In this document: one piece after another, positions 2,016-61,770 of the stretch
Numbering within the stretch: position 1 is the stretch's first letter
Layout of the letters: every line of letters begins with the position of its first letter
Assembly: GCA_020343555.1 (NCBI GenBank)
Contig: CP070800.1
Location: 2,208,116-2,272,115 of the forward strand
Direction: 5' to 3'
Source of the DNA: Dehalococcoidales bacterium
GTDB taxonomy: Bacteria > Chloroflexota > Dehalococcoidia > Dehalococcoidales > UBA2162
Length of the DNA: 64,000 nt
Program-made: the position numbers and the translations under genes
Notes under the pieces: model-generated
What the model saw: the letters and a program-made list of their open reading frames with translations, nothing else
The model's database searches: none
Told to the model about the DNA's origin: nothing

Positions 2016-3350
2016 ATGGAAATTTCGAGTATAATTTTGAAAAAGAAAAAAGCGTCAACCGGTATCCAGATTGACCATAACAAAATTACTGCGCGTAGTC
2101 CCGTTGAGGTTCTGCCATTACCTGAAAAAGTGATCCTGTCCATGCAGCAGAATATCGGTGCCGCCTGTTCACCGGTTGTGAAAAGAGGTGATAAGGTTCT
2201 CGCCGGCCAGAAGATAGGTGATTTCGACGGATTCGTAAAATCTCCGGTTCATGCGTCTATTTCAGGTGAAATATCCGGACTGACCCGTCTGGTTAACCCT
2301 CCTACCGGCCAGCCTGTGGAAGGAGTGATTCTTACTTCGGATGGCGAAGATACCCATGTTGATGTCGAACCAAGGCAAGATCTTGACTCTCTTTCGAATG
2401 AGGAAATACTTGGAAAGATAGGTGAATGCGGACTTGTTGGACTCGGTGGTGCTACTTTTCCCACCCGTGTTAAATTATCCCCCTCTGCTGATATTAAAAT
2501 CGATACCGTGATCCTTAATGGATGCGAATGCGAACCGTGGGTCACCTCTGACCACAGAGTAATGCTGGAATACGGTGCGAAGGTACTCTCAGGACTTAAC
2601 ATCATAAGGAAATTGCTATCACCTGATAATATCTATATAGCTATTGAAGACAATAAACGGGATGCTATCGAACATCTTGAAGGTCTGATACAGATGATGA
2701 GTTTCAAAGGTATTTTCAATATAGTACCGTTGAAATCCACCTACCCGATGGGCGGTGAAAAGGTACTGACCGAGGTGATTTTAGGCAGACAAGTACCTAT
2801 CGGAGGGCTGCCTACCGGTGTAGGTACTATTATCCAGAACGTCAGTACTGCCAAAGCAATCCATGACGCAGTACTCGAAAACAAACCATATATTGAAAAA
2901 ATTGTTACGGTGACCGGAATGGTCAAGAATCCGAAAAACCTGCTGGTCAGAATCGGTACACCAATAATCGACCTGATCGAGTATTGCGGCGGAATGGAAG
3001 ACTCGGCTAACGAGGTAATCATGGGCGGCCCGATGATGGGCATCTCTCAGTTCGATCTCAATTTCCCTGTTACCAAGGGCACTAACTGTATCCTCGTTAA
3101 GAAAGGAAGACATATTCGGGAACACGACTGCATACGTTGCGGTTCATGCCTGGATGTTTGCCCGATGCATCTTATGCCTACAAATTATGTAAAATATGTC
3201 AAAGCTGGATTATATGACGATTGTTCAAAAGAATATATCGAAGATTGTTTCGAGTGCGGCTGCTGCAGTTATTCCTGCCCCGCGAATATCCCGATAACAC
3301 AATACATCAAGGTTGCCAAGAGTGAAATAAACAAGAGGAGAGCCAGGTAA
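2016..3350 (+). CDS. rnfC: Rnf complex subunit RnfC
   Basis: Peripheral NADH-binding, FMN-containing subunit of the ion-pumping ferredoxin:NAD+ oxidoreductase. The 444-residue protein has the barrel-sandwich N-terminus (GDKVLAGQKIGD, SPVHASISGEI), the Rossmann-like Complex I 51-kDa region with GLGGATFPTRVK and NGCECEPWVT, and a C-terminal pair of [4Fe-4S] motifs (CIRCGSCLDVCP and CFECGCCSYSCP). The length matches clostridial RnfC. Its stop overlaps the rnfD start (TAATG), so the two are translationally coupled. Confidence 0.96.
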   Translation: MEISSIILKKKKASTGIQIDHNKITARSPVEVLPLPEKVILSMQQNIGAACSPVVKRGDKVLAGQKIGDFDGFVKSPVHASISGEISGLTRLVNPPTGQPVEGVILTSDGEDTHVDVEPRQDLDSLSNEEILGKIGECGLVGLGGATFPTRVKLSPSADIKIDTVILNGCECEPWVTSDHRVMLEYGAKVLSGLNIIRKLLSPDNIYIAIEDNKRDAIEHLEGLIQMMSFKGIFNIVPLKSTYPMGGEKVLTEVILGRQVPIGGLPTGVGTIIQNVSTAKAIHDAVLENKPYIEKIVTVTGMVKNPKNLLVRIGTPIIDLIEYCGGMEDSANEVIMGGPMMGISQFDLNFPVTKGTNCILVKKGRHIREHDCIRCGSCLDVCPMHLMPTNYVKYVKAGLYDDCSKEYIEDCFECGCCSYSCPANIPITQYIKVAKSEINKRRAR

Positions 3351-4303
3351 TGACCTCTGTGAAGGAACTACTGGTTTCACCAGGACCACACCTGTGGAGA
3401 GAAACATCCATAAACAGGATAATGTATATCGTGATTCTCACTCTGCTATTGCCTGCCGGAGCAGCGGTTTATTACTTTGGCGCCCGGGCTATATTTCTGA
3501 TCCTCGGCTGTGTATTAGCGGCAGTAGCGACTGAATATGGTGTAAAGAAACTAAGGAAGCGACCCTTCCGCATGGATGGAAGTGCGATCATTACAGGATT
3601 ACTGCTGGCACTGATACTCCCTTCTTCGCTGCCTGTCTGGATGGCAGTGGTCGGTTCGGTATTTGCTATCGCCATCGTCAAGGAAGCGTTCGGCGGACTT
3701 GGTCATAATATATTCAACCCGGCCCTTGGCGCCAGGGCGTTTCTCGCTGTTTGTTTTCCGGTTGAAATGACCACCTGGATATTACCTACCGGATTCTCTC
3801 CCGATGCTGTTACCACCGCTACTCCTCTGAGTGAACGATTTGTCTGGGAAGGCAGTAAATCTTCTCTATACGGTGATATGCTGGTGGGCAATACAGCCGG
3901 TTCGCTTGGGGAAACATCGGCTCTCCTTATAATCATCGGTGGAATCATTCTTATCATGCTTAAGTTGATCGACTGGAGGATACCACTTACGTATATAGGG
4001 ACGGTTGCCCTGTTCACTCTGATTCTCGGCGAAGATGTATTATACTATCTTCTATCCGGTGGTCTGATGCTGGGAGCCTTTTTCATGGCGACTGATTACA
4101 CTACTTCCCCTCTCACTCGGCGGGGTAAGGTAGTCTTCGGCATCGGTGCTGGTATTATTACCACGATAATTCGGATATATGGAGGTATGTCTGAAGGAGT
4201 ATGTTTCTCAATACTGTTTATGAATGCTGCGACACCCCTGATAGACAGGTATCTTAAGACAAAACCTTATGGACTGGTGAAGAAAGCAAAAAGTGAAGCT
4301 TAA
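3350..4303 (+). CDS. rnfD: Rnf complex subunit RnfD
   Basis: Integral membrane subunit (317 residues, about nine hydrophobic segments) of the NqrB/RnfD family. Family landmarks are the GHNIFNPALGARAF loop and TTATPL (Thr158), which corresponds to the Thr that carries covalent FMN in RnfD, consistent with the apbE gene at the head of the operon. The ATG overlaps the rnfC stop by one base, and its own end overlaps rnfG by 11 bases. Confidence 0.95.
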   Translation: MTSVKELLVSPGPHLWRETSINRIMYIVILTLLLPAGAAVYYFGARAIFLILGCVLAAVATEYGVKKLRKRPFRMDGSAIITGLLLALILPSSLPVWMAVVGSVFAIAIVKEAFGGLGHNIFNPALGARAFLAVCFPVEMTTWILPTGFSPDAVTTATPLSERFVWEGSKSSLYGDMLVGNTAGSLGETSALLIIIGGIILIMLKLIDWRIPLTYIGTVALFTLILGEDVLYYLLSGGLMLGAFFMATDYTTSPLTRRGKVVFGIGAGIITTIIRIYGGMSEGVCFSILFMNAATPLIDRYLKTKPYGLVKKAKSEA

Positions 4304-4841
4304 TATAAGAGAACTATATCCGATAATATTTATCACGCTGGTTGTACTTATATCTATCAGCCTTTTAGCGTTTACGGATCATATCACTGAAGCAAAACGT
4401 GAAGAACAGAGAGATCTGAGAATAACGAACATGCTTTCCGATATGTTCCCTGAATTAAGCCGTTATGAACTGGTAGATGAGATATACTTGATATACGATG
4501 ATGGAGACATAGTTGGATACGCTTATATAGCTCAAGGTAAAGGTTATGGTGGCTTTATCGATATCCTGGTTGGACTGGAAGACGAGAATACAATCAAGGG
4601 AATTAACATCGTCAGGCATACTGAAAGTCCCGGGTTAGGCGCCAGGATAAGCGAGGATGGATACCGGGATCAGTATCTCGATCTCGATATTGCTGATTCC
4701 AGGATGAATTTCGATGGTGGAAAGATCGACTCAATCACTGGGGCCACAATCAGTTCTGAAGCGGTAGCCGATGCCGTAAGGACTACCGCCCTTGAGAAAG
4801 TACAAGAGTTATTTGGTAAGGGAGATGATCAGGACGAGTAA
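4293..4841 (+). CDS. rnfG: Rnf complex subunit RnfG (FMN-binding)
   Basis: One N-terminal membrane anchor (residues about 9-27) and an extracytoplasmic FMN-binding domain. DSITGAT at 146-152 is the ApbE flavinylation motif, with Thr152 the predicted FMN carrier. GTG start at 4293 inside the end of rnfD; the C-terminus overlaps rnfE by 17 bases. 182 residues is normal for RnfG. Confidence 0.95.
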   Translation: MKLNIRELYPIIFITLVVLISISLLAFTDHITEAKREEQRDLRITNMLSDMFPELSRYELVDEIYLIYDDGDIVGYAYIAQGKGYGGFIDILVGLEDENTIKGINIVRHTESPGLGARISEDGYRDQYLDLDIADSRMNFDGGKIDSITGATISSEAVADAVRTTALEKVQELFGKGDDQDE

Positions 4842-5445
4842 ATTCTGGGAAGAACTGGCTAAAGGGATAATTATCTCAAATCCCGTATTTGTCCTTGCTC
4901 TGGGTTTGTGCCCGGCGCTTGCCGTTAGCGGCAATCTTGATAATGCCCTGGGTATGAGTGCCGGTGTCCTCTTCGTTCTCCTGGGTTCGAATATCATTAT
5001 ATCTTTGATCAGGAATTTTGTCCCTGACATAGTAAGAATTCCCGTTTTTATCGTAATAATAGCGACTTTTGTTACCATCATCGGTCTCCTGTTTGAAGCT
5101 TACGTGCCCACTCTTTACGATTCTCTCGGGATTTATCTTCCCCTTATCGTTGTCAACTGTATTATCCTTGGCAGGGCTGAAGCATTCGCTTCACGGAATC
5201 GTATCCTGTATTCGATAGCCGACGCTATTGGCGCCAGCATCGGTTTTATGCTTGCGCTGGTTATGATAGCATTCTTCAGACAGATACTTGGCACCGGGGG
5301 TCTCTCTGTTTTCGGGGTGGAATTATTCACCCTTCCGGTACTTGGAGAACACCCGATGTTATTCTTCATCCTTCCGCCGGGAGCCTTCCTTGTGATAGGT
5401 CTTCTCCTGGCTTTATTCAGACAATTGGGGGTGCTTAAAGATTGA
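4825..5445 (+). CDS. rnfE: Rnf complex subunit RnfE
   Basis: Six-helix membrane subunit of the RnfA/RnfE (NqrD/NqrE) family, recognised by FWEELAKGIIISNPVFVLALGLCPALAVS and by LPLIVVNCIILGRAEAFASRN in the second inverted half, where conserved Cys residues bind the membrane-embedded Fe-S centre with RnfA. I use the ATG at 4825, which begins at the family's usual N-terminus. A TTG at 4792 would add 11 residues without family support. Confidence 0.95.
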   Translation: MIRTSKFWEELAKGIIISNPVFVLALGLCPALAVSGNLDNALGMSAGVLFVLLGSNIIISLIRNFVPDIVRIPVFIVIIATFVTIIGLLFEAYVPTLYDSLGIYLPLIVVNCIILGRAEAFASRNRILYSIADAIGASIGFMLALVMIAFFRQILGTGGLSVFGVELFTLPVLGEHPMLFFILPPGAFLVIGLLLALFRQLGVLKD

Positions 5446-6020
5446 GTGAAAACCTTTTTGTATTATTCGTCACGATGGCGTTGATAAATAATTTCATACT
5501 CGTCAGGTTCCTTGGTCTTTGCCCGTTTTTCGGAATTTCCAAGAATATCGGGAACGCAATAAGTATGGGCATAGCAGTCACTCTTGTCATGTTGATCGCT
5601 TCCGCTATCACGTGGCTGATTAACAACTTTGTACTCATTCCATATGACATCGGGTACATGAACATCGTGATGTTCATACTGGTTATCGCCGTTATGGTAC
5701 AGATAGTAGAAATGGTCATAAAGAGGACTAACCTTACTCTTTATAACGCTCTCGGCATCTACCTCCCGCTTATTACTACCAATTGCGCAGTACTCGGTAT
5801 TGCGCTAATTAACGAACTGGGAGGATATTCTTTCCTCGGCAGCGTTGTTGCGGCACTGGGTGCCGGGATTGGTTTCTCCCTGGTATTGATAATCATGTCC
5901 GGAATCAGGGAAAGGCTGGAAATAGCAGATATACCCAGAGCTTTGAAAGGCTTACCGATCGCGTTCCTTGTTGCCGTTTTACTCAGCCTGACATTCATAG
6001 GGTTCGGAGGTATTGTGTAA
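5442..6020 (+). CDS. rnfA: Rnf complex subunit RnfA
   Basis: Six-helix partner of RnfE with the inverted topology. NNFILVRFLGLCPFFGISKN and YLPLITTNCAVLGIALIN carry the conserved Cys residues of the intramembrane Fe-S site. The start is TTG within a TTGA overlap with the rnfE stop, a clear translational coupling. 192 residues is the usual length. Confidence 0.95.
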   Translation: MSENLFVLFVTMALINNFILVRFLGLCPFFGISKNIGNAISMGIAVTLVMLIASAITWLINNFVLIPYDIGYMNIVMFILVIAVMVQIVEMVIKRTNLTLYNALGIYLPLITTNCAVLGIALINELGGYSFLGSVVAALGAGIGFSLVLIIMSGIRERLEIADIPRALKGLPIAFLVAVLLSLTFIGFGGIV

Positions 6021-6860
6021 ATGGCTGTTACGATCATTGTACTGGTAATTATCGGACTTGCTCTTGGAGTATTGATATATGTGGCTAACCTGGTTATCCC
6101 TCAGAAAGTAAAAGGTCTTGGGAAGATAGATGAGATTTCAGCTTTATTACCCGGCGCTAACTGTGGTGCCTGCGGTAATCCAAGCTGCTATGGTTATGCC
6201 AGGCTATTAAGTGGGGATGCCGAGTATATATCCAAGAATCCATGTACTCAGATACTCGGTGATGTTGAGGTTCTCCAGCAACTTGAGGATGTTCTCGGGA
6301 TTAATATCGATTCTTCGGATATTGCACGTAAGTCGGTAATTCGCTGTAACGGTAAATCTGAACTGGTATATGATTACTCGGGAGTTACCACCTGTAAAGG
6401 TGCTGCCCAGTTACTCAGAGGATATAAAAAATGCGCGTATGCCTGTCTCGGTCTTGGCGACTGTGTAGCTATCTGTCCTCACGATGCAGTTAACATTGAT
6501 TCCGAGAAAGGAATAGCTGTCATTGACCAGGAAAAATGTATCGGATGCGGCTTGTGCGTAACGGAATGCCCTCAGAATATGATAGATCTCATCTCACCGC
6601 AAACAAAAGTCGTCTTACTCTGTAATTACCAGACATTGAGAGATCTGCCGGGTAGAGAAAAATGTGAATCCGGCTGTATACACTGCCGGAAATGTCTCAA
6701 TGCCTGTGAATACGAAGCTATAACTTTCAACAAGGAACGAGGTATACCAGAGTTCGATGACGATAAATGCGTTCTATGCCGTAAATGCATAGAAGAATGT
6801 CCTCCCTCCTGTTTGGCCGAGTTTTCTCATGTAGGCACATTACAACAAACTGCAGCCTAG
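6021..6860 (+). CDS. rnfB: Rnf complex subunit RnfB (polyferredoxin)
   Basis: Electron-entry subunit accepting electrons from ferredoxin. It has an N-terminal membrane helix (about 3-25), the RnfB Cys domain (NCGACGNPSC, later Cys in NPCTQIL), and four further ferredoxin-type Cys clusters: C-LGLGDCVAICP, CIGCGLCVTECP, CIHCRKCLNAC and CVLCRKCIEECP. The start directly abuts the rnfA stop. This completes the C-D-G-E-A-B order typical of Clostridia and Acetobacterium-type Rnf operons. Confidence 0.95.
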   Translation: MAVTIIVLVIIGLALGVLIYVANLVIPQKVKGLGKIDEISALLPGANCGACGNPSCYGYARLLSGDAEYISKNPCTQILGDVEVLQQLEDVLGINIDSSDIARKSVIRCNGKSELVYDYSGVTTCKGAAQLLRGYKKCAYACLGLGDCVAICPHDAVNIDSEKGIAVIDQEKCIGCGLCVTECPQNMIDLISPQTKVVLLCNYQTLRDLPGREKCESGCIHCRKCLNACEYEAITFNKERGIPEFDDDKCVLCRKCIEECPPSCLAEFSHVGTLQQTAA

Positions 6861-10139: not shown

Positions 10140-11909
10140 CTAGCGCCAGAAATCGATACTGTATGCCGTATTTGAATTCGCACCCCGGCCGTCAGTCCAG
10201 AGTGCCATCTCTTCGCCGCCGCCAGTTACAATGATGCAGTTTTCGAATGGGGCTGAAACAGCAGGTACCATGTAGTCTTCGTCAAGTTCCTTCCATGGTT
10301 TACCGGAGGTTGGTTCGATTCCTTTCCAGGCATTTGTTGTGACGTCCGGTCTCTGGTGAGTACGGTATTCTCTGACAGTCATGAAACTCTGCTTGTATAG
10401 CCATTCGTAGACTTCATCCTTACTCTTGAAACCGTAGAGTTGAAGATCACGAGCCATCTCGGGCAGCATCAGGAATGTTTTACCACCTTCCCAGTTCCTC
10501 CAGAGTCCGCCGGCAAAGTATTCCAGCCAGTTGTGGGGGCCGGGAATTCCCTTAACTCCCAGCCGCCTGCCTATACCACCATGTCCGCTTTTCTGAAATT
10601 CTCTGTAACCGCCGGGCATGAACTCCGTTCTCTGGATGCTGTCTGACATTCTTATAGCAACTATGCAACTATCGTCTTTACCGAAATCGTATTCTTCTCT
10701 TAATGTTGCCCAACCCGGTGGTAGAGCTTCATCGTTCTCCGGGAAGCAGTTGTTTAAACCATTACCCCAGACTCCGCAATTGGTAACATTGGGAATATTA
10801 CCGCCAAGATTTCGCCACATTAATTCAGCGGCGCGACCGATGCTTCTGTTCGAAGGATTACCCGGACCGAGTACATTAGTATCGAAGTTCATTTTTATCT
10901 CTTTGGCATACGGACCGCTGACCACATAAGCCATGCCCCCACGACCGTCGCCACAGCCGCCGCCAGCTTCAGCAATAGCCAGTAAGATCGGCATGTGCTC
11001 CGGTTTGCATCCTGCCATAACTCCGATCGTCGCAACCTTTTCTACCGTAGCTTTCCTGCGCATGGGCATAAAATGGACGGGGTCGCCTTTCTGTCCCGAA
11101 CTTCCCATCTGGGCCAGGCGGTCTCCGAGTATCCGGTCGGCCTGGTAAGTGATTATCTCGTCCGGTTTGTGACTGGTACCTTTCAGCATCTGTTCTACCA
11201 GTTCTTCAATGGGCGGTACGATCGGTAGTCCGTCGGTATATTTGCATATGGGCGTATTGTTATAAAGCTGCGGAATTTCTTCCGTCTGTCCGAAAAATTC
11301 CTGAGCTTCCTGAATGGTGCCTTCAAAGATATACCTCGGATCTGAGAAATCAAATTTCGGTGGATTCTTCTCTTCTTCGGTCAGTGGTCGAACCAGCTGA
11401 TCCATAAGTTTGTCAATCCAGGTCTCGACATCTTCGGGACCGGGAACATGACGTGAACCCCAGACTCGCCTGATACTCGGAATACCGTTCAGGCGACATG
11501 CCTGCTGCCAGCATTCATCCTGATCCTCGAAAATAATAAATACGCTGGGAATCCCTGCTTTTTCAATTGATGACAGATGGGGCAACTGCTCCCAAATGGC
11601 ACCATGTCACCATACGACACCGCGGACCAATGCGTCCGTGGTTTTCATTTCCTCTTCGGTTAAAGCTACACTGCCTGCTTTCGTCATGTGCGCGGCAGCG
11701 TAACTGATATTCCAGTTCACCTGGGGATACCTTTCCGGTAGCATTTTCACCAGCGGAATGAGGATACCCTGCTCTCCTCCGGCTCCAACGCTCATTGTAA
11801 TATTCTTACCTTCCAGCGTGTCGAGCCGGGGTGCAAGCGGGTGCTGCTCCACGGGATCCTGTATCCCTACGGGATTTAGGAATTTGTAAACCTGATCTTT
11901 TTCTGCCAA
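10140..11909 (-). CDS. UGSC-type (seleno)protein with in-frame TGA read as selenocysteine
   Basis: A single frame runs from TTG 11909 (AAGGAGGAG just upstream) to 10140, interrupted only by TGA at 11607-11609, codon 101. The N-terminal part (PLAPRLDTLEGKNI, then TDALVRGVVW before the TGA, then EKAGIPSVFI after it) follows the pattern of the UGSC (seleno)protein family, and the TGA falls exactly where that family has Sec in its UGSC motif; here the motif reads U-H-G-A. The C-terminal part (from about residue 230: TVEKVATIGVMAGCKPEHMP, GPGNPSNRSIGRA) is a second domain I recall from UGSC-associated proteins; its activity is unknown to me. A 39-base hairpin begins at the TGA. Automatic annotation would split it into a 140-residue and a 481-residue ORF. 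A nonsense pseudogene is the alternative, but no other damage is seen. It is probably a redox protein. Confidence 0.8.
11571..11609 (-). promoter_or_regulatory. Candidate bacterial SECIS hairpin at the TGA codon
   Basis: On the minus strand the 39 bases from the TGA close as a hairpin: TGACA pairs with TGTCA at the far end; a single bulged T follows, then four more pairs (one G-T); then an asymmetric internal loop, a GGG/CCC stem and an 8-base loop AGCAGTTG containing G and T. Bacterial SECIS elements sit immediately 3' of the UGA, with a bulged U and a small apical loop, as here. Confidence 0.55.
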
Positions 11910-12052
11910 ATTCTCCTCCTTATTATTTGGATAACCTAATAAATTATAAGACGAAATCCGATATTTATAAAATAAAAAATGTTTATGAAATGAGTTAACA
12001 ATATTTGCATGTAAAAGTAAGTCTTCCAATGAAAACCCGGGTTTTATTAACG

Positions 12053-12116: not shown

Positions 12117-13937
12117 CTAGAAAGGTCTGCCGCCCGGCCAGAGTTCGTTGGCTTCGTTTTCCATGCCCAGCTCGAGCAGTTTTTCTTTCTTCGGTTTTGC
12201 CGTGTTCATGTCCCAGTTAAGTGCCCCGAAAGCCCAGTACGCCTGCTGCATAGCATCGACGCTCACGTTAGCAAGGGGGCCTTCCTTTTGCGGCGGATCA
12301 CCGGTAATCCTCGGGTGAACTTCAATTTCAAGCGGATTGATGCCTTCACGCAGGTTGAACAGGTGACGCATCACCAGGATTCTCTCGCCGCACTTCAGCA
12401 GTTCATCCATCGACCGTTCCAGTCCTGTAGCACCTGCCATATAATCTGGAATCAATCTAGTGGTTGGACCCATAAAACCAAAAAGACAGCAGCCAACCGC
12501 ATTCACTATGTGCGTAGAAAAGCTGGATGGGCCGAAAGCCTGCGTGTGCCTTCCGGGTGTCGGTTCGACGTGGAATCTTGCGGTAGCTGTCTCGCCGCCC
12601 ATTCCGAACAGCTTCGGATCATGCATACCGAGTTCCTGACCACCGATGTGTATGGCATACTGGTCAGAGTCCTTTCCTATCTTTTCTGCGGCAACCTTAA
12701 CGCCGTCAGCCAGGATATCTCCGAGGCCTTCTCTCTTTGCCAGTTTCCAGGTCATGTCGACTATTGCCTTGTGGTTACCCCAGGTCAGTTCGATACCATC
12801 GGTATCTGCCTTGGTAAGAATACCATTCTCGTAGCACTCCATCGCGAATGCAACCACACAGCCACCGGAAATGGTATCGATACCGTACAGGTTACAGATA
12901 TGACTTGCCATTGCGATTGATTCTCTGTTGTTGTTCAGACATAACGGACCGAAAGTCGCCTGTGTTTCATATTCAGGGCGACGGTTACCGGCCGGATAGT
13001 TATATTCACCCGTTCCCGCTTTCAACGATGCCTGGCAGGCAATAGGACACTGCCAGCAGCCGAATCTCTTGTCCAGGTGTTCTATTGTTGCATCACCGGT
13101 TAAAGTAGAGATATCGGGTAGATCGACCACACCGATACCACCCCAGTTTTTTATCGGGGTATCGCCGCTGTGCGTTGAACCGGCTGTTATCGATGATGTT
13201 CCATATGTATGGAAATTGTCGAGCATGGAACCTCCCCCGGGGCCTGGTGTTCGTAAAGCATCGACTTGTTGCTTTCTTGCAGTCATCATCCGCTCTCTAT
13301 CGGCAAGTTCAAGACTACTTTGATCGCCTATCGCTACTACAGCCTTCAGCCGTTTTGATCCCATAACTGCTCCGAGTCCGGATCGTCCGGCTGCGGCGCC
13401 TTTCTCGGTGACTATACAGGAAATAAGAGAGACCTGCTCACCGAAGGGACCGATGCAAATTACTTCCGTACCTTTCCCATGCTTGTCTCTCAGTACTTCT
13501 TCGGTCTCATAGCAGTCTTTACCCCAGACCTCTCCAGCATCGACCAGTTCGGCCTTGCCGTCGTTGACCAGAAGATATACTGGTTTTTCGGATATTCCCG
13601 TGAAAAATACTGCGTCGTATCCGGCAAATTTTAGTGTCGGTCCGAATATTCCTCCAGAATTTGCGTCACCCCAGCCGCCTGTCAGTGGTGACTTGGCTAC
13701 AGCGACATATCGTGCACCGGTAGGAGTCGGGGTACCGGTAAGAGGTCCTGTTACGATTCCCAGCATGTTATCCGGACCCAGAGGATCTACGCCCGGTTTC
13801 ATCCTGTCGTATAATACCCTTGCTCCAAGGCCGTATCCGCCGAGATAGTCACGGTAAAGGCTGTCATCGGGGACTTCCTCCTCAATCATTCCTGTACTCA
13901 AGTTAACGAATAGAAGCTTCCCTGCATATCCTTTCAA
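12117..13937 (-). CDS. Aldehyde ferredoxin oxidoreductase family protein (AOR copy 1)
   Basis: 606 residues, full-length AOR family: tungstopterin-dependent oxidation of aldehydes to acids with ferredoxin as acceptor. The N-terminal domain has YLGGYGLGARVLYD and GPLTGTPTPTGARY, then SGLGAVMGSKRLKA. The [4Fe-4S] ligands Cys294, Cys297 and Cys301 form CxxCxxxC, with a distal Cys in the NAVGCC segment. TTG start with GAGGAGG 9 bases upstream. It precedes the selenoprotein gene by 207 bases on the same strand and is divergent from an SDR gene, which suggests a shared alcohol/aldehyde substrate. The substrate itself cannot be read from the sequence. Confidence 0.92.
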   Translation of the reverse strand: MKGYAGKLLFVNLSTGMIEEEVPDDSLYRDYLGGYGLGARVLYDRMKPGVDPLGPDNMLGIVTGPLTGTPTPTGARYVAVAKSPLTGGWGDANSGGIFGPTLKFAGYDAVFFTGISEKPVYLLVNDGKAELVDAGEVWGKDCYETEEVLRDKHGKGTEVICIGPFGEQVSLISCIVTEKGAAAGRSGLGAVMGSKRLKAVVAIGDQSSLELADRERMMTARKQQVDALRTPGPGGGSMLDNFHTYGTSSITAGSTHSGDTPIKNWGGIGVVDLPDISTLTGDATIEHLDKRFGCWQCPIACQASLKAGTGEYNYPAGNRRPEYETQATFGPLCLNNNRESIAMASHICNLYGIDTISGGCVVAFAMECYENGILTKADTDGIELTWGNHKAIVDMTWKLAKREGLGDILADGVKVAAEKIGKDSDQYAIHIGGQELGMHDPKLFGMGGETATARFHVEPTPGRHTQAFGPSSFSTHIVNAVGCCLFGFMGPTTRLIPDYMAGATGLERSMDELLKCGERILVMRHLFNLREGINPLEIEVHPRITGDPPQKEGPLANVSVDAMQQAYWAFGALNWDMNTAKPKKEKLLELGMENEANELWPGGRPF

Positions 13938-37971: not shown

Positions 37972-39831
37972 CTACCAGATATCCTTGATTACCGATTCAA
38001 GTCCTAATTGTGTAAGGGTGTCGGGAAGCGGTTTCCCTGTGGTTTTATCCCAGCCCATTCGGTCGTAATAATCATCCAGCATTTTATCCAGGAAAGGAAG
38101 TACTTCTCTTCCTGCTACCGGACCGTCCACGGGAGTCGAACCATATCTTGGAGAGGGAGCTTCCATTTCCCTGGTATGACCGCACCTGAAATTATACACT
38201 CTGAAAAGATTAACTATTCTGAGACCTACGGTCTGTGCATCATTTTCCGTAAATTCCCAGCCGGTTGCCGCCTGGACAGCTTCAGCCAAAGTTTCTAATT
38301 CAACCAGAGTTGCGAATCGGCACGTACCCAGCGTGTCTTCAAATGACATCCTTCCTTTACCTGAGGTAGCAACTTCAACCGTGTCCTGCCATTCATTACC
38401 GGTGCTGACAATTCCAACAGGACGAGATTCCAGGGTGCTGGTATTCGATGTCAGTTTATCGAACATTTCCGTAAGGTATCCTCTATGGTCATACCCGCGT
38501 GGTGTATTACCCTTGAGAGTATGAACCGCAAACTCGGTCGCTCCTTTTCCGATAAGCTTGCCAGCACGCATCGCTCCTTCGGCTAATTTGTCTCCGATTT
38601 CCTGCCTATTAGCGATTTTATACAATATGTCTCTTGTTGCTTCAGCATCTCCCCAGTTAAGCTCGATTCCTCCGGTATCTTCTTTAGTGATAAGACCTTT
38701 TTCGTAGCATTCCATCGCGAGACCGATCACCCAGCCGGTTTCATTCATTTCGAGACCCAGGCGATCTACCACGTTTGTCAGCATCATTGCTGATGCTACT
38801 TCCATGTTGCCGATCTGGCTACCCATTGCCGAAAGGCATTCAAACTCCGGTTCTTCCACAACCATACCCGTATACGGTCCTTCGGTAATGGTGGATTCGT
38901 GGCAGTGCTTCATCTGGCATGCCCAGCACGGAGTATGTTTCGGATTAAACCTGCCACGTATATATTCCGGGGTAAACTGCTCGAGTTTTTCTATATCAGG
39001 ATAAATGTTGGTCGTGTAATTTTTTATCGGTAATGCGCCGGTTTGTTCTACCATTCGGTAGGTCCCAAGTGTTCCATACTTATAAAGGTTACTGCCCATC
39101 CTGCCGTTTTTAATTGTATCGACAATCTCTCGAGATAACTGAGATATTTTGTCAGGATCACTCAGGCTAACGCTACGCTTTCCTCGTGCGACCGCAATCG
39201 CCTTTAATTTTTTCGATCCCATAACGGCACCGGTACCGTTATGTCCAGCTACGTGACCTCGATCAGCTACAATGGCTGCGAATTTTACGAGATTTTCTCC
39301 GGATGGTCCGATGGCTGCGACACTCATCTCCGTTTTCTTGTAGCCCAGTTCTTCTTTTATAAGCTCATCGGTTTCCCAGACGTCTTTTCCTACAAGACGG
39401 GAGGCATCCCTGATCTCAACGATGCCGTCATGAACGTAAAGGTAGACGAAATTGTTCGATATGCCCTGAATAATTATTCCATCCAGGCCCGAGAGTTTCA
39501 GATAGGCTCCCCAGAATCCGTTTGCCTGGCTCGATGTCGCACCATTGGTGAGACAACCTTTGGTAGAAACCGAAAAAGTTCCTCCCCCCGGAATCCTCGT
39601 GCCAGCCAGGGGGCCGGTGGTGAATATAAGGCGATTTTCAGGAAAAAAGCAGTCGATATCCGGATCCACTTCATCATAGAGATACATTGCTCCCAATCCG
39701 GCTCCGCCAATCCATTTTTTCAGTATCTCTTCTTTTGGGAATTCTTCATTCGTCGTTCCGGTAGTAAGATCTACTCTTATTATTTTTCCTGCGTATCCGA
39801 ATTGTTTCGATTCTTTACTAGCACTATCCAT
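37972..39831 (-). CDS. Aldehyde ferredoxin oxidoreductase family protein (AOR copy 2)
   Basis: 619 residues. WIGGAGLGAMYLYDE, TGPLAGTRIPGGG and GHNGTGAVMGSKKLKA are the tungstopterin-domain signatures. The Fe-S ligands are spaced CxxCxxxxC (Cys302, 305, 310), one residue more than in the other two copies, with a distal Cys in LGTCRFATL. First gene of a run with two CoA transferases and a VOC protein (all minus), so its product acid may be converted directly to a CoA ester. Confidence 0.92.
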   Translation of the reverse strand: MDSASKESKQFGYAGKIIRVDLTTGTTNEEFPKEEILKKWIGGAGLGAMYLYDEVDPDIDCFFPENRLIFTTGPLAGTRIPGGGTFSVSTKGCLTNGATSSQANGFWGAYLKLSGLDGIIIQGISNNFVYLYVHDGIVEIRDASRLVGKDVWETDELIKEELGYKKTEMSVAAIGPSGENLVKFAAIVADRGHVAGHNGTGAVMGSKKLKAIAVARGKRSVSLSDPDKISQLSREIVDTIKNGRMGSNLYKYGTLGTYRMVEQTGALPIKNYTTNIYPDIEKLEQFTPEYIRGRFNPKHTPCWACQMKHCHESTITEGPYTGMVVEEPEFECLSAMGSQIGNMEVASAMMLTNVVDRLGLEMNETGWVIGLAMECYEKGLITKEDTGGIELNWGDAEATRDILYKIANRQEIGDKLAEGAMRAGKLIGKGATEFAVHTLKGNTPRGYDHRGYLTEMFDKLTSNTSTLESRPVGIVSTGNEWQDTVEVATSGKGRMSFEDTLGTCRFATLVELETLAEAVQAATGWEFTENDAQTVGLRIVNLFRVYNFRCGHTREMEAPSPRYGSTPVDGPVAGREVLPFLDKMLDDYYDRMGWDKTTGKPLPDTLTQLGLESVIKDIW

Positions 39832-46478: not shown

Positions 46479-48344
46479 TTATCCGGGGTACTTTTTCATA
46501 TCTTCTGCTATGCGGTCGAGTCCAAGTTCATCAAGCTTTTCACTCGTCGGGATACCTTTTTGCGACCAACCTCTCATCTCATAATACTCGTCAAGGAACT
46601 TATCCAGGTTTTTGACTACCTGGCCTTCACCTTCATCGACACCGGTGTGTGTTACCGGTTCCGTCTGGACACGCTGCGGTAAGGTATCGTGCCTGCGGTC
46701 AAATCCTTCACGCACGTTAAAGGCACGATCCATGTTGACGATCCTTTCACCTACCGTATTCACGTAATCCCAGCTTCCGAATTCTTCAATCCCGGTCGCA
46801 GCAGCCAGCATTTCAGGGAATAACTCCTGTATCCATCCTCCGTGATTTTCAGAAAAAGCGCAGAGTATACCTGTTTCTCTGAGCGCAGCTCGATGCTGAT
46901 TATAAATAACAATATCGGCTTTCTCTTCTTCTGCAAAACGATCGACCGCTCTCGGTACCGGAACACCCATTTCCTGGAAAGCTAGTGCTCCGTTTCCATG
47001 ACTGCCGCCGATACTCGATGTAGCGTACCCAAATCCGGTCGCCTTGAGACCCCTGGGTTCGTAGGCAGGAAGCTCCAATCCTTTTACCTGCATCGCATAA
47101 TACTCCGAATCTTTACCGATTCTTTGTGCTGCTCTGACGGTGCCATCTGCCAGGACGTCTCCGAAACCTTCTCTTTTCGCTATTTTTTCTATCAGCGAAA
47201 TCATCGCAGCGTGATTACCATAGGTCAGGTTAAGACCGTCGGTATCAGCTTTTGTTAGGATACCCTTTTCATATAATTCGAAAGCGAATCCGATACAGCT
47301 TCCCGTGCTTATGGTATCCAGGCCGAGTTCATCGCAGAGTTCGTCCGCAGCTATTGCCGCTTCCCTGCTGTTGCTGTCTATTGTACCGGTGAAAGCCCAG
47401 ACACTCTCGTATTCCGGGCCTTCGCTGTGAGCACCTTTGTACGGCCCATCCTGCACGGTATGCACCTGTCCACACCGGGCACCACAGCTGTAACAGCCTG
47501 AATTACCCACTTTCATCTCTCTGAATCTGTCACCGGAGAGTTCTTCAAATCCATCCATCCTTCCCCAGCGGAAATTCCGGGTAGGATAAACCCCGAGTGC
47601 ATTTCTGGAGATAGCACCTCCAGTTGTTCCTCCCTGCCTGAATCCTTCAAATCCTCTCGCGGATCGGAGTATTTCAATCTGCCGGTTGATCAGTACTTTC
47701 AGTTTTTCAGGATCATAAACGGATATATTCCTGTCAGCGTTAATTGCAATCGCTTTCAAGTTCTTTGATGCCATCACAGTCCCGGTGCCGCAACGGCTGG
47801 CTGTCCTTCTTCCTGAAACGATAGCTGCATACCTCACAAGGTTTTCGGCAGCAGGTCCAACACAGGCTGTTCGTGTATTATTTCCGTGTTGTGCAGTAAT
47901 CCAGTCCTGTGCCTTTTGGGAAGTCCGCCCCCAGATTTCACCGGCATCTTCAATATTTACACGTTCCGGTGTAACGTACACGTAGACCGGTTTTTCCGAT
48001 TTACCCTCGACAATGACCAGGTCATACCCGGCGAATTTCAGCCAGGCAGCGAAGTCTGCACCCCCTGATGAACGGGCGTAGCATCCGGTCAACGGGCTTT
48101 TCGTAATCGACAGCCAGCGGGAAGCACTCTGTACGGTCGTTCCGGCAAGAACTCCGTTACACAGTATCAGCTTGTTATCTTCTCCCAGTGGATCGGTACC
48201 GAATGCAAGTTCATCATACAGATATTTTATCGCCAGACCTCTACCTCCGATAAAAGTCATAATATCCTGTAGAGGTATATCTTCGTTTTCCACTTTTTCG
48301 GTAGATAGATTGATCCTTAGTAATGTGCCTGTTAAACCTTTCAT
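46479..48344 (-). CDS. Aldehyde ferredoxin oxidoreductase family protein (AOR copy 3)
   Basis: 621 residues, full-length. FIGGRGLAIKYLYDEL, GVLAGTTVQSASRW and RCGTGTVMASKNLKA are the pterin-domain signatures; Cys284, Cys287 and Cys291 give CxxCxxxC, with a distal Cys in TGILCAFSENHGG. ATG follows GGGAGGGG. It is the last gene of a minus-strand run of three SDRs, 23 bases after the nearest one, consistent with stepwise alcohol-to-acid oxidation. Confidence 0.92.
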   Translation of the reverse strand: MKGLTGTLLRINLSTEKVENEDIPLQDIMTFIGGRGLAIKYLYDELAFGTDPLGEDNKLILCNGVLAGTTVQSASRWLSITKSPLTGCYARSSGGADFAAWLKFAGYDLVIVEGKSEKPVYVYVTPERVNIEDAGEIWGRTSQKAQDWITAQHGNNTRTACVGPAAENLVRYAAIVSGRRTASRCGTGTVMASKNLKAIAINADRNISVYDPEKLKVLINRQIEILRSARGFEGFRQGGTTGGAISRNALGVYPTRNFRWGRMDGFEELSGDRFREMKVGNSGCYSCGARCGQVHTVQDGPYKGAHSEGPEYESVWAFTGTIDSNSREAAIAADELCDELGLDTISTGSCIGFAFELYEKGILTKADTDGLNLTYGNHAAMISLIEKIAKREGFGDVLADGTVRAAQRIGKDSEYYAMQVKGLELPAYEPRGLKATGFGYATSSIGGSHGNGALAFQEMGVPVPRAVDRFAEEEKADIVIYNQHRAALRETGILCAFSENHGGWIQELFPEMLAAATGIEEFGSWDYVNTVGERIVNMDRAFNVREGFDRRHDTLPQRVQTEPVTHTGVDEGEGQVVKNLDKFLDEYYEMRGWSQKGIPTSEKLDELGLDRIAEDMKKYPG

Positions 48345-54975: not shown

Positions 54976-57021
54976 ATGGGCTATTATATGGATATAGATA
55001 CCGGCGGTACCTTCACTGACGGTTTTGTCCGTGGAGATGGCAGAAGGGAACTGGTAAAGGTAGACACTACTCCCCATGATCTCACTCTCTGTTTTATGGA
55101 ATGTATCGAAGAAGCTGCGAGAAGATTCGATTTCGACGACGCCAGTGACCTGCTTAACCAGATGGACACACTCCGCCTGTCTACAACAATAGGCACCAAC
55201 ACATTAATACAAAGCAACGGACCTAAGTTAGGGTTACTGGTAACGAAAGGAAAAGGTGAAAACGCATATTCTCCGGCTGGTTCGATGAATCCGGCAATGA
55301 ATTTTCTCATCCCTGAAGATATGATTATTGGTATCGATGAGGAAATGGGTGAATCCGGTAAATCGATCCGCGAACCGGAGAGTGTCCAGGTACTGGCTGC
55401 GGTGAAAAATCTGCTTGAAAGAGGAGCCAGAAGAATCCTGGTAAGTCTTGCCCGATCCCCTGTTAATCCCGCCCACGAAGAAAAATGCCGAGAACTTGTT
55501 CTTGAAGACTATCCGGCTCATTATCTTGGATCGGTACCGTTATTACTTTCCTCTGAAGTAAGTACCGAGTTGGACGATATGCGGAGGACAAATGCAGCCC
55601 TCATCGATGCCTATATCCACCAGGATATGACACATTATCTTTATAAGGCTGACGATGACGTGAGAAATCGTCGATACCGGTGGCCTTTGCTTATCGTTCA
55701 CGCCACGGGAGGAGCAGCCCGGGTTGCCAAGACCAAAGCAATCGATACCTGTGATTCAGGTCCTGCAGCCGGCCTGTTCGGGGCGGCTTTTCTGGCAAGG
55801 CTCTATGGTATTGAAAACGTCGTAACAATCGATGTCGGCGGCACGAGTACTGATATAGGTCTCATTGCGCACGGTCAACTTTCCTACGCTGCTGAGAGAG
55901 ATATGTACGGTGTTCCCGTCAAGGAAAGAGTTATCGAGACCATTTCTTTTGGTGGTGGGGGCAGTTCCGTTGCCTGGATCGATAATAAAGGGACATTACG
56001 AGTTGGCCCGGAGAGCGCCGGGGCGATTCCCGGACCGGCATGTTACAGCCTGGGCGGTGATAAGCCTGCAGTGACTGATGCATGGGTAACGCTGGGGTAT
56101 ATAGACCCTGACTATTTCCTTGGTGGTCGAAGAAAACTGGACAGGGAACAAGCCAGAGCAGTCATCAAAGAGCAGATAGCCGATCCCTTGAAAATATCGA
56201 TAGAAGAAGCAGCTGAAGCAATACTGGCAGAAATGACCAGACAGTCTGCTAAATCGGTGAGAGAGTTCATTGCAAGAAAGGACCTAAGAGAAGAAGATGT
56301 GGCGATGTTCGCTTTCGGTGGAGCGGGTGGTCTTTCCTGTGCCAGCCTGGCGAAAGAGTGCGGTATTCCAACGATTTATTCATTTCCTTTCGGAGCTCAA
56401 TTCTGTGCCTTCGGGTCATCCTGTACCGATGTTCTGCATACTTACAGCCGGATCGAAAACCTCCCGCTTGATTCAAGTTCCTCGGCGGAAACAATAAAGA
56501 AGTTCAATGAAGTCACAAAGGCTATGGCAGAAGATGCGTATTTCGATATGGAAGGTGAAGGTTTTTCGAAAGAGAGTGTTTCACTGATGCTTGAAATCAC
56601 ATTAAGAGCGAACGATCAGGCTCTGCCGATGGTAGTTCGACGGAATGAGATAAACCTTAAAGGCGAAAAAGATCTTTCAGACCTTGCTGAGATTTATCGA
56701 AAAGAGAATGTTACAGAAAATCATCCGGAACTGTTTATCCGGGAAATAAGACTCCAGGCAACTTCCCGCCTGGCTGATCCGGAATTTCCAGAGCATCCTT
56801 CTACTGGAGAGAATCCTGAGGAAGCATTAAAAGATACCAGGTCTATATATAATGAGGGTAAATTCCAGGACGTGCCCGTTTATAACCAGGAACTTCTTAA
56901 AAGCGGTAATATGATAAAAGGACCTGCTTTCGTTGAAAGTGCCAGCACTACTATCCTGGTGCCTTCGGGCAGCCGGTATACAGCAGATAAGTACCTAAAT
57001 GGACTGTTGGAAGAGAGGTAA
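54976..57021 (+). CDS. Apc-like carboxylase, first HyuA-type subunit
   Basis: 681 residues of the HyuA/OxpA-N family (acetone/acetophenone carboxylase, N-methylhydantoinase, oxoprolinase). The ASKHA ATP-binding motifs are intact: MDIDTGGTFTDG at the start and TIDVGGTSTDIG near residue 283, then GGGGSSVAWID. Size and first position match Apc1 of acetophenone carboxylase (about 70 kDa). ATG with TTTAGGAGG upstream. It is expected to phosphorylate the enolate or bicarbonate in ATP-dependent carboxylation. Confidence 0.88.
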   Translation: MGYYMDIDTGGTFTDGFVRGDGRRELVKVDTTPHDLTLCFMECIEEAARRFDFDDASDLLNQMDTLRLSTTIGTNTLIQSNGPKLGLLVTKGKGENAYSPAGSMNPAMNFLIPEDMIIGIDEEMGESGKSIREPESVQVLAAVKNLLERGARRILVSLARSPVNPAHEEKCRELVLEDYPAHYLGSVPLLLSSEVSTELDDMRRTNAALIDAYIHQDMTHYLYKADDDVRNRRYRWPLLIVHATGGAARVAKTKAIDTCDSGPAAGLFGAAFLARLYGIENVVTIDVGGTSTDIGLIAHGQLSYAAERDMYGVPVKERVIETISFGGGGSSVAWIDNKGTLRVGPESAGAIPGPACYSLGGDKPAVTDAWVTLGYIDPDYFLGGRRKLDREQARAVIKEQIADPLKISIEEAAEAILAEMTRQSAKSVREFIARKDLREEDVAMFAFGGAGGLSCASLAKECGIPTIYSFPFGAQFCAFGSSCTDVLHTYSRIENLPLDSSSSAETIKKFNEVTKAMAEDAYFDMEGEGFSKESVSLMLEITLRANDQALPMVVRRNEINLKGEKDLSDLAEIYRKENVTENHPELFIREIRLQATSRLADPEFPEHPSTGENPEEALKDTRSIYNEGKFQDVPVYNQELLKSGNMIKGPAFVESASTTILVPSGSRYTADKYLNGLLEER

Positions 57022-57024
57022 TAT

Positions 57025-57378
57025 ATGGGACAGAAATTACAAATTACGGAGTACCTGGATATTGATCTCGAAGAAGAAAAGTGGTGCTGTAACAGATGTG
57101 GACGGGTATTGATATCAGCCCGGGAAAATTATAAAAAAGGCTGCCTGGTCTATGACCGTGATCCCAGCACTATCTTTCCTCCGGTGGTCGAGGACGGCAA
57201 TTTCGCTCCCGATCCTGAAATTTGTCGAATCGTGGAGTTTTACTGTCCCGGCTGCGCAGTCATGATAGAAAATGAAGTACTTCCACCCGGACATCCGATC
57301 ACCTACGATATTGAACCTGATATCGACAAGCTGAAGAATAAATACCTGAAAAGTGAAAACACGCAGGAGGACAGTTAA
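57025..57378 (+). CDS. Apc-like carboxylase, gamma (zinc) subunit
   Basis: 117 residues with two Cys pairs, CNRCG (Cys22, 25) and CPGC (Cys74, 77), a likely zinc site. RDPSTIFPPVVEDG and DPEICRIVEFYCPGC follow the acetone carboxylase gamma pattern, and the size fits the 15-kDa Apc2 chain. It lies between the two HyuA-type genes (3 bases after the first, 1 base before the next), as in the apc operon. Confidence 0.82.
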   Translation: MGQKLQITEYLDIDLEEEKWCCNRCGRVLISARENYKKGCLVYDRDPSTIFPPVVEDGNFAPDPEICRIVEFYCPGCAVMIENEVLPPGHPITYDIEPDIDKLKNKYLKSENTQEDS

Positions 57379-57379
57379 C

Positions 57380-59572
57380 ATGGCTGAACTTCAAACAACG
57401 AGAGAGCAAACTGATTATCCAAAAGTAAGGGCTAGTATTAATGTCGATATCGGAGGGACATTCACTGATTGTCTTATCACCTATGACGACAAGATGGTGT
57501 TCGGCAAAGCCCCAACCACAACCTACGACCTGTCAAGGGGTTTCATGCAGGCATTACGTGAAACCGTAGTCTCTCTAGGAATGTCACTTGAAGAACTACT
57601 CGAGTCAACAGAAATGGTCCGTTATTCAACTACTCTTGCCGTAAACAGGCTCATCGAAAGGAAAGGACCGCGACTCGGACTGTTTACGACGGAAGGCTGG
57701 GAAGATACTCTTCCAGCCGGAAGAGGAGGTTCATGGGGAGACGGTATTGCCATCAGTGAAATGAGACGCCTTCCCAGGATGAAGAAACCGGAGCCAATCG
57801 TTCCCCGGCACATGGTTGTCGGCATTAAGGAAAGAATCGATTATAAAGGCGATATAGTACGACCGCTGGACGAAGAGGACGTACTGGAGAAACTGCGATA
57901 CCTGGTAAACCAGGGCGCCCAGGGATTTGTCGTCTGCCTGATAAACAGCTATACCAATCCTATCCATGAACAGAAAATACGCGACCTGATCAAACGTCAG
58001 TACCCCGAATCTTATCTCGGAAGCATGATTGTAGTTGTTTCGTCGGATGTATCACCGAGATGGCGTGAATATCCGAGGATGGTGGCTACCATGTTGTGTG
58101 CTTATCTCCAACGCTCAATGGCTGACGAATTAAAAGGTATGAGTGACGAACTCAGAAACTCGGGATATAAAAAAGCGATGATGATGGTACACAACAGCGG
58201 CGGTATGGCGGAAGTGTTCCGGACCACTGCTCTTAATACCTTCAACGGTGGACCTTCAGCCGGTATTATCGGAGCAGCTTATATCGGCAAACAACAGGGA
58301 TTCCCGAATATTATCGCCACCGATATGGGAGGTACCAGTTTTGACGTTGGCCTGGTAGTGAATGAAAACCCGAGCTTTTTTCAATATCATCCTGTCATCG
58401 AACGGTGGGCCGTGGAACTGACCATGCTTGAGTCAAAGTCTATAGGAGCCGGGGGAGGTTCTATTGCCAGTGTAGATCAGCTTATGGGAAATAAATTATC
58501 CATTGGGCCACGAAGTGCGGGATCCATGCCCGGTCCGGCTTGTTATGACCTCGGCGGTACCGAACCAACAGTAACCGATGCCGATGTGGTCCTGGGTTAC
58601 GTTAATCCGGACTATTTCCACGGCGGAAAGATGAAACTGGACAAAGAAAAAGCAATAAATGCTATCCGCCGAAGAATCGCCAGGCCACTCCAGATCGAGG
58701 TGGAAGAAGCAGCCTGGCTGATCAAAAAAATCGTTGATGGTAATATGGCGGGTGAGTTATTCAAGGAAACAATTCTGAAGGGCCGTGACCCGAAAGAATT
58801 TGTTGTATTTGCCCTTGGCGGAGCGGGCCCGACTCATAGTTGCGGGTATACTTTCGAGGCAGGAGTTCCGAAAATCGTGACCTTCCCTGCTTCACCTGTT
58901 TTCTGCGCTCTCGGTTCCGCGGTAATGGATGTTATTCAGTATTACGAAGCAACCAGGTATATTCTCTTGAAACAGCCTTCCGGAATCGGTGGTGCCGGTA
59001 CCGGAGAGTACTTTACCGATTATGAATCCTTTAATACAGTAGTCGAGAGCCTGCAGAAACGCGCTGTTCGAGACCTTGAAGGGCAGGGTATCAACCCGGA
59101 ACTGGCTGTTTTTTCACTGGAACTGGAGATGAGGTATGGCGGACAGTTGAATATGACACGCATCTCGTCTCCCCGTTTATACATCCATAGCGAAGAAGAC
59201 GTTAATGCAGTATACGAGCAGTTTGAGAAAGAGTTTATCGAAGCATACAGTGCCTTATCTGTATTCCCTGAAGGGGGTGTCGATATCTCGTCATTTATCC
59301 TTCGGTCAACATTCGTAACCCCGACATTTGAAATGCCCAGATATCCGATAACAAGCGATAAGGTATCATCGAATGCTATCAAAAGAAAACGGGAGGTATA
59401 CTGGCAGGAACTGGGTGGGTTCAGGCCGACAGATACCTATGATCTGAGTCTTCTCAAAGCAGGGAATAAGATAGAGGGACCTGCGATCATTGAAGCGTCG
59501 GATACAAATATCGTTCTCCCTCCAGGAAGAACATTCACGATAAATGAATACATGAGTGGCATCATCGTATAG
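57380..59572 (+). CDS. Apc-like carboxylase, second HyuA-type subunit
   Basis: 730 residues from the ATG at 57380, with AGGAGGACAG upstream; the longer ORF from 57353 lies inside the preceding gene. ATP motifs VDIGGTFTDC and ATDMGGTSFDVG are intact, and the GGGSIASVD and PRSAGSMPGPACYDLGG segments are family hallmarks. Distant from the first HyuA in sequence. Its size and place fit Apc3 (87 kDa). Confidence 0.88.
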   Translation: MAELQTTREQTDYPKVRASINVDIGGTFTDCLITYDDKMVFGKAPTTTYDLSRGFMQALRETVVSLGMSLEELLESTEMVRYSTTLAVNRLIERKGPRLGLFTTEGWEDTLPAGRGGSWGDGIAISEMRRLPRMKKPEPIVPRHMVVGIKERIDYKGDIVRPLDEEDVLEKLRYLVNQGAQGFVVCLINSYTNPIHEQKIRDLIKRQYPESYLGSMIVVVSSDVSPRWREYPRMVATMLCAYLQRSMADELKGMSDELRNSGYKKAMMMVHNSGGMAEVFRTTALNTFNGGPSAGIIGAAYIGKQQGFPNIIATDMGGTSFDVGLVVNENPSFFQYHPVIERWAVELTMLESKSIGAGGGSIASVDQLMGNKLSIGPRSAGSMPGPACYDLGGTEPTVTDADVVLGYVNPDYFHGGKMKLDKEKAINAIRRRIARPLQIEVEEAAWLIKKIVDGNMAGELFKETILKGRDPKEFVVFALGGAGPTHSCGYTFEAGVPKIVTFPASPVFCALGSAVMDVIQYYEATRYILLKQPSGIGGAGTGEYFTDYESFNTVVESLQKRAVRDLEGQGINPELAVFSLELEMRYGGQLNMTRISSPRLYIHSEEDVNAVYEQFEKEFIEAYSALSVFPEGGVDISSFILRSTFVTPTFEMPRYPITSDKVSSNAIKRKREVYWQELGGFRPTDTYDLSLLKAGNKIEGPAIIEASDTNIVLPPGRTFTINEYMSGIIV

Positions 59573-59610
59573 ATCTTGGATTTACACTATGAAGGGAAAA
59601 GGAGGTAGCA

Positions 59611-61719: not shown

Positions 61720-61770
61720 TATTCGGTAGTTGATGATTGAGAACAATGTACTCTTTCAAAGGAGAAATTT

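Follow-up and report, generated by a model that had tools for sequence, protein, structure and literature searches.

A single frame that is interrupted by one TGA raises the question of whether that codon ends a protein or is read as selenocysteine (Sec) and, if it is read through, what the protein could be doing. In this study, we examined such a frame in a stretch of 64,000 nucleotides from a Dehalococcoidales bacterium, which is referred to below as the window. The original prediction had described a single frame of 590 codons with a TGA at codon 101 that automatic callers split in two. This is borne out: the frame runs on the minus strand from 11909 to 10140, the TGA is its sole in-frame stop, the predicted coordinates (10140..11909) are exact for the entire gene, and the mechanical ORF list holds the same two pieces, 11607-12029 and 10140-11585. 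The parts of the gene are as follows.

10140..11909, minus strand: predicted selenoprotein gene of 590 codons (the TAG stop counted), giving 589 residues with Sec as residue 101 (from the frame and homologues)
11913..11920, minus strand: Shine-Dalgarno-like AGGAGGAG, preceding the TTG start at 11909-11907 (read from the sequence)
11607..11609, minus strand: in-frame TGA, codon 101, taken as selenocysteine (TGA in 27/27 aligned and 50/50 read copies)
10142-10140, minus strand: TAG stop of the gene (read from the sequence)

Compared with its counterpart at locus L003 of a related draft genome (G001), the gene shows pN 0.052 and pS 0.85 over codons 1-100, and pN 0.083 and pS 0.73 over codons 102-589; pN is low relative to pS in both parts, indicating protein-like change on both sides of the TGA. 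One in-frame TGA inside a real gene would also be expected if UGA were read as an ordinary amino acid throughout the organism and Sec were not involved, a reading that we consider extremely improbable. A simple scan of the window, requiring at least 60 open codons on each side and 250 in all, passed only three TGA codons, codon 101 included, whereas 5 of 45 selected window ORFs (picked from 55) end in TGA, so TGA is a normal stop here and the code is unchanged. The Cys homologue and the sel genes of relatives described below likewise fit Sec and not reassignment. At the two other TGA codons passing the scan, 2251 (minus strand) and 34591 (plus strand), we saw nothing indicating read-through.

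The TGA is conserved far beyond the window. Searching genome contigs with an alignment built from relatives yielded 28 loci (L001-L028). Twenty-five of these (L001-L025) carry TGA at the codon aligned to 101 in a matched frame that is otherwise free of stops; L026 and L028 end short of the site and L027 holds a separate U-G-S-C gene. When the window and 26 copies taken from loci were aligned by codon, all 27 had TGA at codon 101, and the Acidobacteria copy left out of that alignment (L025) also has TGA at the site. In three related draft genomes we counted 51 copies scoring above 800 bits (17 in G001, 23 in G002 and 11 in G003), a count that excludes copies truncated at contig ends and relatives with lower scores. 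Each of these full-length copies has exactly one internal stop, a TGA, with TAA or TAG at the site in 0/51; in the 50 copies read base by base (50 of the 51, one G003 copy on contig C56 not being among them) the TGA stands at the Sec site without exception.

The original prediction had proposed looking for homologues with Cys at codon 101, and one was found. P0052, a metagenome protein of 585 aa that is 63% identical to the window protein, has Cys at the site (VWCHGAIW), and among the matches listed no other full-length relative from the close branch lacks Sec. It is nested within the Sec branch, in the UHGA group of the tree, and thus looks like a Sec-to-Cys change. The same protein search returned 1,909 matches; among the best 120 listed, the other 119 are fragments of 357-492 aa, and the 13 of these fragments that were aligned all start behind the TGA.

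Unrelated residues at the site, or frameshifts and stops in relatives, had been named with the original prediction as evidence against it. Both occur in the wider family, and the full-length copies of the branch are unaffected by either. Ser, Thr or Leu occupies the Sec site in ten divergent homologues outside the branch, and three relic copies were found: L103:858-1160 (G003 contig C33) has lost the C-terminal domain and carries a TAA exactly at the Sec codon, the only non-TGA stop found there; L104 has a TAA near codon 70; and L107 has lost its middle. Three two-domain homologues with Leu or Ser at the site lie in tandem at L088 (G001 contig C41:32000-39000), in the genome that has 17 Sec copies, and L089-L092 hold more homologues with Ser, Thr or Leu there.

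Directly behind the TGA lies a potential recoding signal.

11568..11604, minus strand: SECIS-like hairpin directly behind the TGA, with an apical stem at 11578-11594 and the loop AGUU (from folding and comparison)

Of the 79 alignment columns in which a degenerate residue never varies, two alone keep a single codon in 27/27 copies, Gln108 (CAG) and Leu109 (TTG), and both are loop codons; in the copies read base by base, codon 108 is CAG in 50/50 and codon 109 is TTG in 49/50. Comparison of these copies thus indicates that synonymous change is suppressed in the loop of the putative hairpin. Pair 19-30 is GC in 13, AU in 12 and GU in 2 of the 27 copies, base 30 being position 3 of codon 110, at which C and T both give Pro. 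Pair 20-29 fails in 7/27 rows, the window among them, those rows accommodating a bulge at this point. Given the 27 rows, RNAalifold did not recover the named hairpin and chose other weak pairs (-1.76 kcal/mol). Against synonymous recodings the window hairpin is unusually stable (z -2.48; 3/200 as low) and 42/51 sequences fold more stably than average (mean z -0.75), as compared with 19/49 for a control stretch 60 codons further. Against dinucleotide shuffles the window hairpin is unremarkable over 65 nt (z -0.61; 55/200 as low) and moderate over 45 nt (z -1.66; 9/200 as low), and L007 (116/200) and L025 (104/200) have no excess stability by this comparison. At the hairpin position L025 has a different stem with the loop GGC, as does L130:4093-5842, where Ala (GCT) replaces Leu109 in an intact frame. 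A hairpin with a conserved loop is thus found behind the UGA, with a signal that is modest for the window sequence taken alone.

The conservation of the TTG has a real rival explanation, since callers choose the invariant TTG109 as a start. Two genes could be present, a 100-residue protein ending at a true TGA and a second one restarting at TTG 11585 (codon 109), in which case the TTG would be a start codon and not part of a SECIS loop. This is how ORF callers split the gene, the sizes of the listed database fragments agree with it, and a GGAG-, GAGG- or AGGA-like word lies within 15 bases before TTG109 in 24/50 copies. We nevertheless regard two genes as very improbable. In 26/50 copies there is no such ribosome-binding-site-like word, a spacing of at least 4 occurs in only 17, and the L130 copy keeps its frame with GCT at codon 109. 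Base 30, which lies past the TTG, changes in step with base 19 so that pairing is kept, whereas a start needs no pairing. The TGA is replaced by TAA or TAG in none of the full-length copies, P0052 is a single protein, and a split at this point would cut the UGSC domain midway.

Sec also requires its own machinery, which we sought in the genomes of five relatives. Matches were obtained for selA, selD and tRNA-Sec (selC) in 5/5 and, over the cut-off, for selB in 4/5, the remaining genome (G005) giving partial matches to selB on two contigs, C122 and C123. ARAGORN called a tRNA-Sec with the anticodon tca in loci of G001, G002 and G003. In all five genomes the best selD match (L044-L048) carries one in-frame TGA, and the selenophosphate synthetase of those genomes may itself be a selenoprotein. 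Locus L003 shares the gene order of the window: a 418-aa protein (84% identical), an SDR (85%) and an aldehyde:ferredoxin oxidoreductase (AFOR; 94%) are followed by the selenoprotein (87%), an FmdE-domain protein (76%) and an MFS protein (87%). This common order suggests that the window very likely comes from an organism closely related to a Dehalococcoidia bacterium that uses Sec. The selenoprotein call of the original prediction is thus supported by the conserved TGA, the Cys homologue, the SECIS-like hairpin and the sel genes in the genomes of relatives, and we are confident, from this comparative evidence, in predicting that the gene encodes a selenoprotein in which UGA codon 101 would be decoded as Sec with help of the hairpin directly behind it.

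To ask what this selenoprotein could be, its domains were compared with known families.

11370..11909, minus strand: N-terminal UGSC-related domain, residues 1-180 (from profile comparison; alpha/beta in the model)
10143..11360, minus strand: C-terminal domain, residues 184-589, matching nothing in Pfam or NCBIfam at E up to 1
11007..11009, minus strand: Cys301 (VMAGC), candidate distal resolving Cys, invariant in the UxxA branch

The UGSC family (PF24696, NF041046) has a homologous domain with Sec at the same place as the window protein. Its motif is UxxC, whereas the window protein is UxxA and its N-terminal domain falls below both curated cut-offs, with 23.1 bits against Pfam UGSC (cut-off 25) and 18.6 bits against NF041046 (cut-off 125). 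A comparison by hhalign with five U-G-S-C domains gave E 1.9e-25 over the whole domain, Sec aligned on Sec, and in the structural model Sec is placed between a beta strand and a helix of the domain. Another member of the branch (L010) passes Pfam UGSC at 32.6 bits and a U-S-T-C fusion does so at 92.4. Relatives from the phylum and from one Acidobacteria draft genome carry the motifs U-S-T-C, U-S-S-C, U-S-V-C, U-S-Q-C, U-D-G-C, U-P-G-C and a fused U-G-S-C. The alignment and the intermediate sequences among these (U-S-T-C, U-S-V-C, U-D-G-C, U-P-G-C and the fused U-G-S-C) agree with the original prediction that the TGA falls at the Sec position of a UGSC domain. It was also right that the motif is UHGA and that the resolving Cys is absent at +3. 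Across the 50 copies the +3 residue is Ala in 49 and Thr in one, and a Cys two residues before Sec, present in 27/50 copies, is absent there in the window.

The large fused C-terminal domain that had been predicted is real; it is not peculiar to this gene, since members of the branch generally have it and a UGSC/Unknown_1 fusion was already known from 2008 (PMC2398784, as far as the accessible text goes). That report described UGSC-containing proteins from Global Ocean Sampling data and supposed a thioredoxin fold for UGSC. Its fusion joins a UGSC domain to a conserved domain of unknown function, which by description is probably the architecture of the window protein; unlike the window protein, it has no UxxA motif in the description given there. 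U-S-T-C fusions at 13 loci in other genomes of the phylum (L050-L058, L061, L063, L067, L076) share the two-domain layout and TGA site of the window but keep the +3 Cys, and their residue 301 is Ala in three and Cys in one of the four on the tree. The parts also occur separately. In L075 a U-G-S-C gene and a gene for the C-terminal domain stand next to each other as two genes, and a search of 400 genomes of the phylum found a match in 42, often to the C-terminal domain alone.

In a quick-search tree of 83 rows with SH-aLRT support, 52 branch rows, including the window and P0052, stand on one side of a branch with an SH-aLRT of 97. L025, with the motif U-G-A-A, adjoins them with an SH-aLRT of 100; it sits on a long branch and its placement is less sure. 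By this tree the UxxA branch is of one origin, and the window protein in all probability represents a derived branch of UGSC that has lost the +3 resolving Cys. Cys301 is kept in 52/52 branch rows and in L025, as against 4/21 UxxC rows and 3/9 non-Sec rows. Since the branch has a single origin, this association counts as one coincidence on the tree and not as statistical proof. It is possible, if doubtful, that Cys301 replaces the lost +3 Cys as a relocated resolving Cys.

The branch is also striking for its copy number, with 11-23 copies per genome in G001-G003 and 23 in one draft genome of 2.1 Mb (G002). The closest copies within a genome are 75% (G002), 71% (G003) and 89% (G001) identical, and single contigs of 52 kb and 37 kb hold six and five copies, respectively. 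Such divergence between even the closest pairs, and six copies on one 52-kb contig, indicate true paralogues rather than mixed strains. For scale, the portion of a review available (PMC13188914) puts the largest bacterial selenoproteomes at 57 selenoproteins and, for a draft genome, 63, with every kind counted.

The genes around the window copy, all on the same strand, give some indication of its context.

12117..13937, minus strand: aldehyde:ferredoxin oxidoreductase (AFOR) gene, directly upstream of the selenoprotein gene, and in the same place in L003
8879..10045, minus strand: esterase-like gene of the beta-lactamase superfamily, directly downstream of the selenoprotein gene, and not at that place in L003
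8302..8826, minus strand: FmdE-domain protein gene, downstream of the esterase gene; its L003 relative directly follows the L003 selenoprotein copy

Among 50 copies, 31 same-strand upstream neighbours lay within 800 bases, of which 30 were scanned, one being part of another copy. Thirteen of the 30 are family-5 solute-binding proteins, each confirmed singly and all in G002. In this genome 14/23 copies have a same-strand SBP_bac_5 match at most 1 kb upstream, where 0.19 would be expected if the 35 matches were spread at random, by a simple binomial that ignores operons and duplication. No such match lies within 1 kb upstream of the 17 copies of G001 or the 11 of G003, and the window copy is without a solute-binding-protein neighbour; the G001 copy L020 has one SBP_bac_5 match within 5 kb, with two permease genes between. 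Downstream, 23 of 27 same-strand neighbours were scanned, the four dropped being parts of other copies or neighbours already listed, and the scan also took in four genes upstream of L013 and L020. Matches in this set were to MatE (3), CoA-transferase family III (2) and, singly, CoA-transferase family I, enoyl-CoA hydratase, URO-D, FmdE and others.

Divergence of the paralogues, together with these neighbours, favours a catabolic enzyme family split by substrate, and we give a roughly even chance to the family being substrate-specialised catabolic selenol enzymes. In such an enzyme the selenolate would attack the substrate or be oxidised by it, Cys301 or an external thiol or electron carrier could then restore the Sec, and the fused C-terminal domain would set the substrate. 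The many copies would then serve different, often imported, compounds in anaerobic catabolism, and the substrate of the window copy might, judging from the AFOR beside it, be an aldehyde or carboxylic acid.

The selenoprotein could instead be a redox or detoxification enzyme, such as a peroxide or electrophile reductase, rather than a catabolic enzyme specialised by substrate. UGSC proteins are presumed to be redox proteins in the text available of the 2008 report (PMC2398784), and a mechanism with a single selenol, regenerated by external thiols, would fit the loss of the +3 Cys. Such a role has a fair share of the probability and is still unlikely on balance, as it does not readily account for 11-23 divergent copies per draft genome, for the solute-binding proteins beside 14 of the G002 copies, or for neighbours that include AFOR, CoA-transferases, enoyl-CoA hydratase and a URO-D protein. 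A second possibility is a protein-B-like component of a glycine-reductase type system, where Sec would also lie in a presumed substrate-specific component. The relatives are anaerobic, glycine reductases have been reported from Dehalococcoidia (PMC9751293, in the text available), and short GRDB-like frames exceeded the cut-off in 3/3 genomes. These frames are just 155-163 residues long, however, and the window protein has no GRDB (PF07355) match in a Pfam scan at E up to 1. G001, G002 and G003 have no GRDA match, which is a weak test since the control genomes gave none either. We therefore consider a glycine-reductase component improbable.

Returning to substrate-specialised catabolism, its fullest form would be that some Dehalococcoidia use a large set of selenol enzymes built on one UGSC-derived fold. 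On this reading the fused domain would adapt each of the 11-23 Sec paralogues of a genome to its substrate, the paralogues of one lineage would often have a dedicated solute-binding protein as partner, and the resolving Cys would have moved from UxxC to Cys301; this complete picture is speculative and rather unlikely to hold in every part. In the accessible text of the literature searched, there is no report of a UxxA branch, of 11-23 copies per genome or of pairing with solute-binding proteins, and no function is stated for any relative. Two reviews, in the parts available, list UGSC with the motif UxxC or UGSC and no function (PMC9312934, PMC13188914), a term search of the available deep-Sep paper (PMC12013277) gave no UGSC, and Sec in Chloroflexi is discussed for formate dehydrogenases in the text available of two papers (PMC4959059, PMC5736913).

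It is important to recognize that the Sec and half of the predicted catalytic domain are invisible to ordinary annotation, as the fragments among the best listed database matches illustrate. The branch appears to be a UxxC selenoprotein that lost its resolving Cys yet stayed under selection, and it supplies specific candidates for anaerobic carbon metabolism still unknown in uncultured Chloroflexota. As to the remainder of the window, it contains three AFOR paralogues (12117-13937, 37972-39831 and 46479-48344), the latter two being 33-34% identical to the first, as well as Rnf-like genes around 2016-6860 and, within 54976-63873, hydantoinase/oxoprolinase genes of the A type (54976-57021 and 57353-59572) and the B type (61771-63873).
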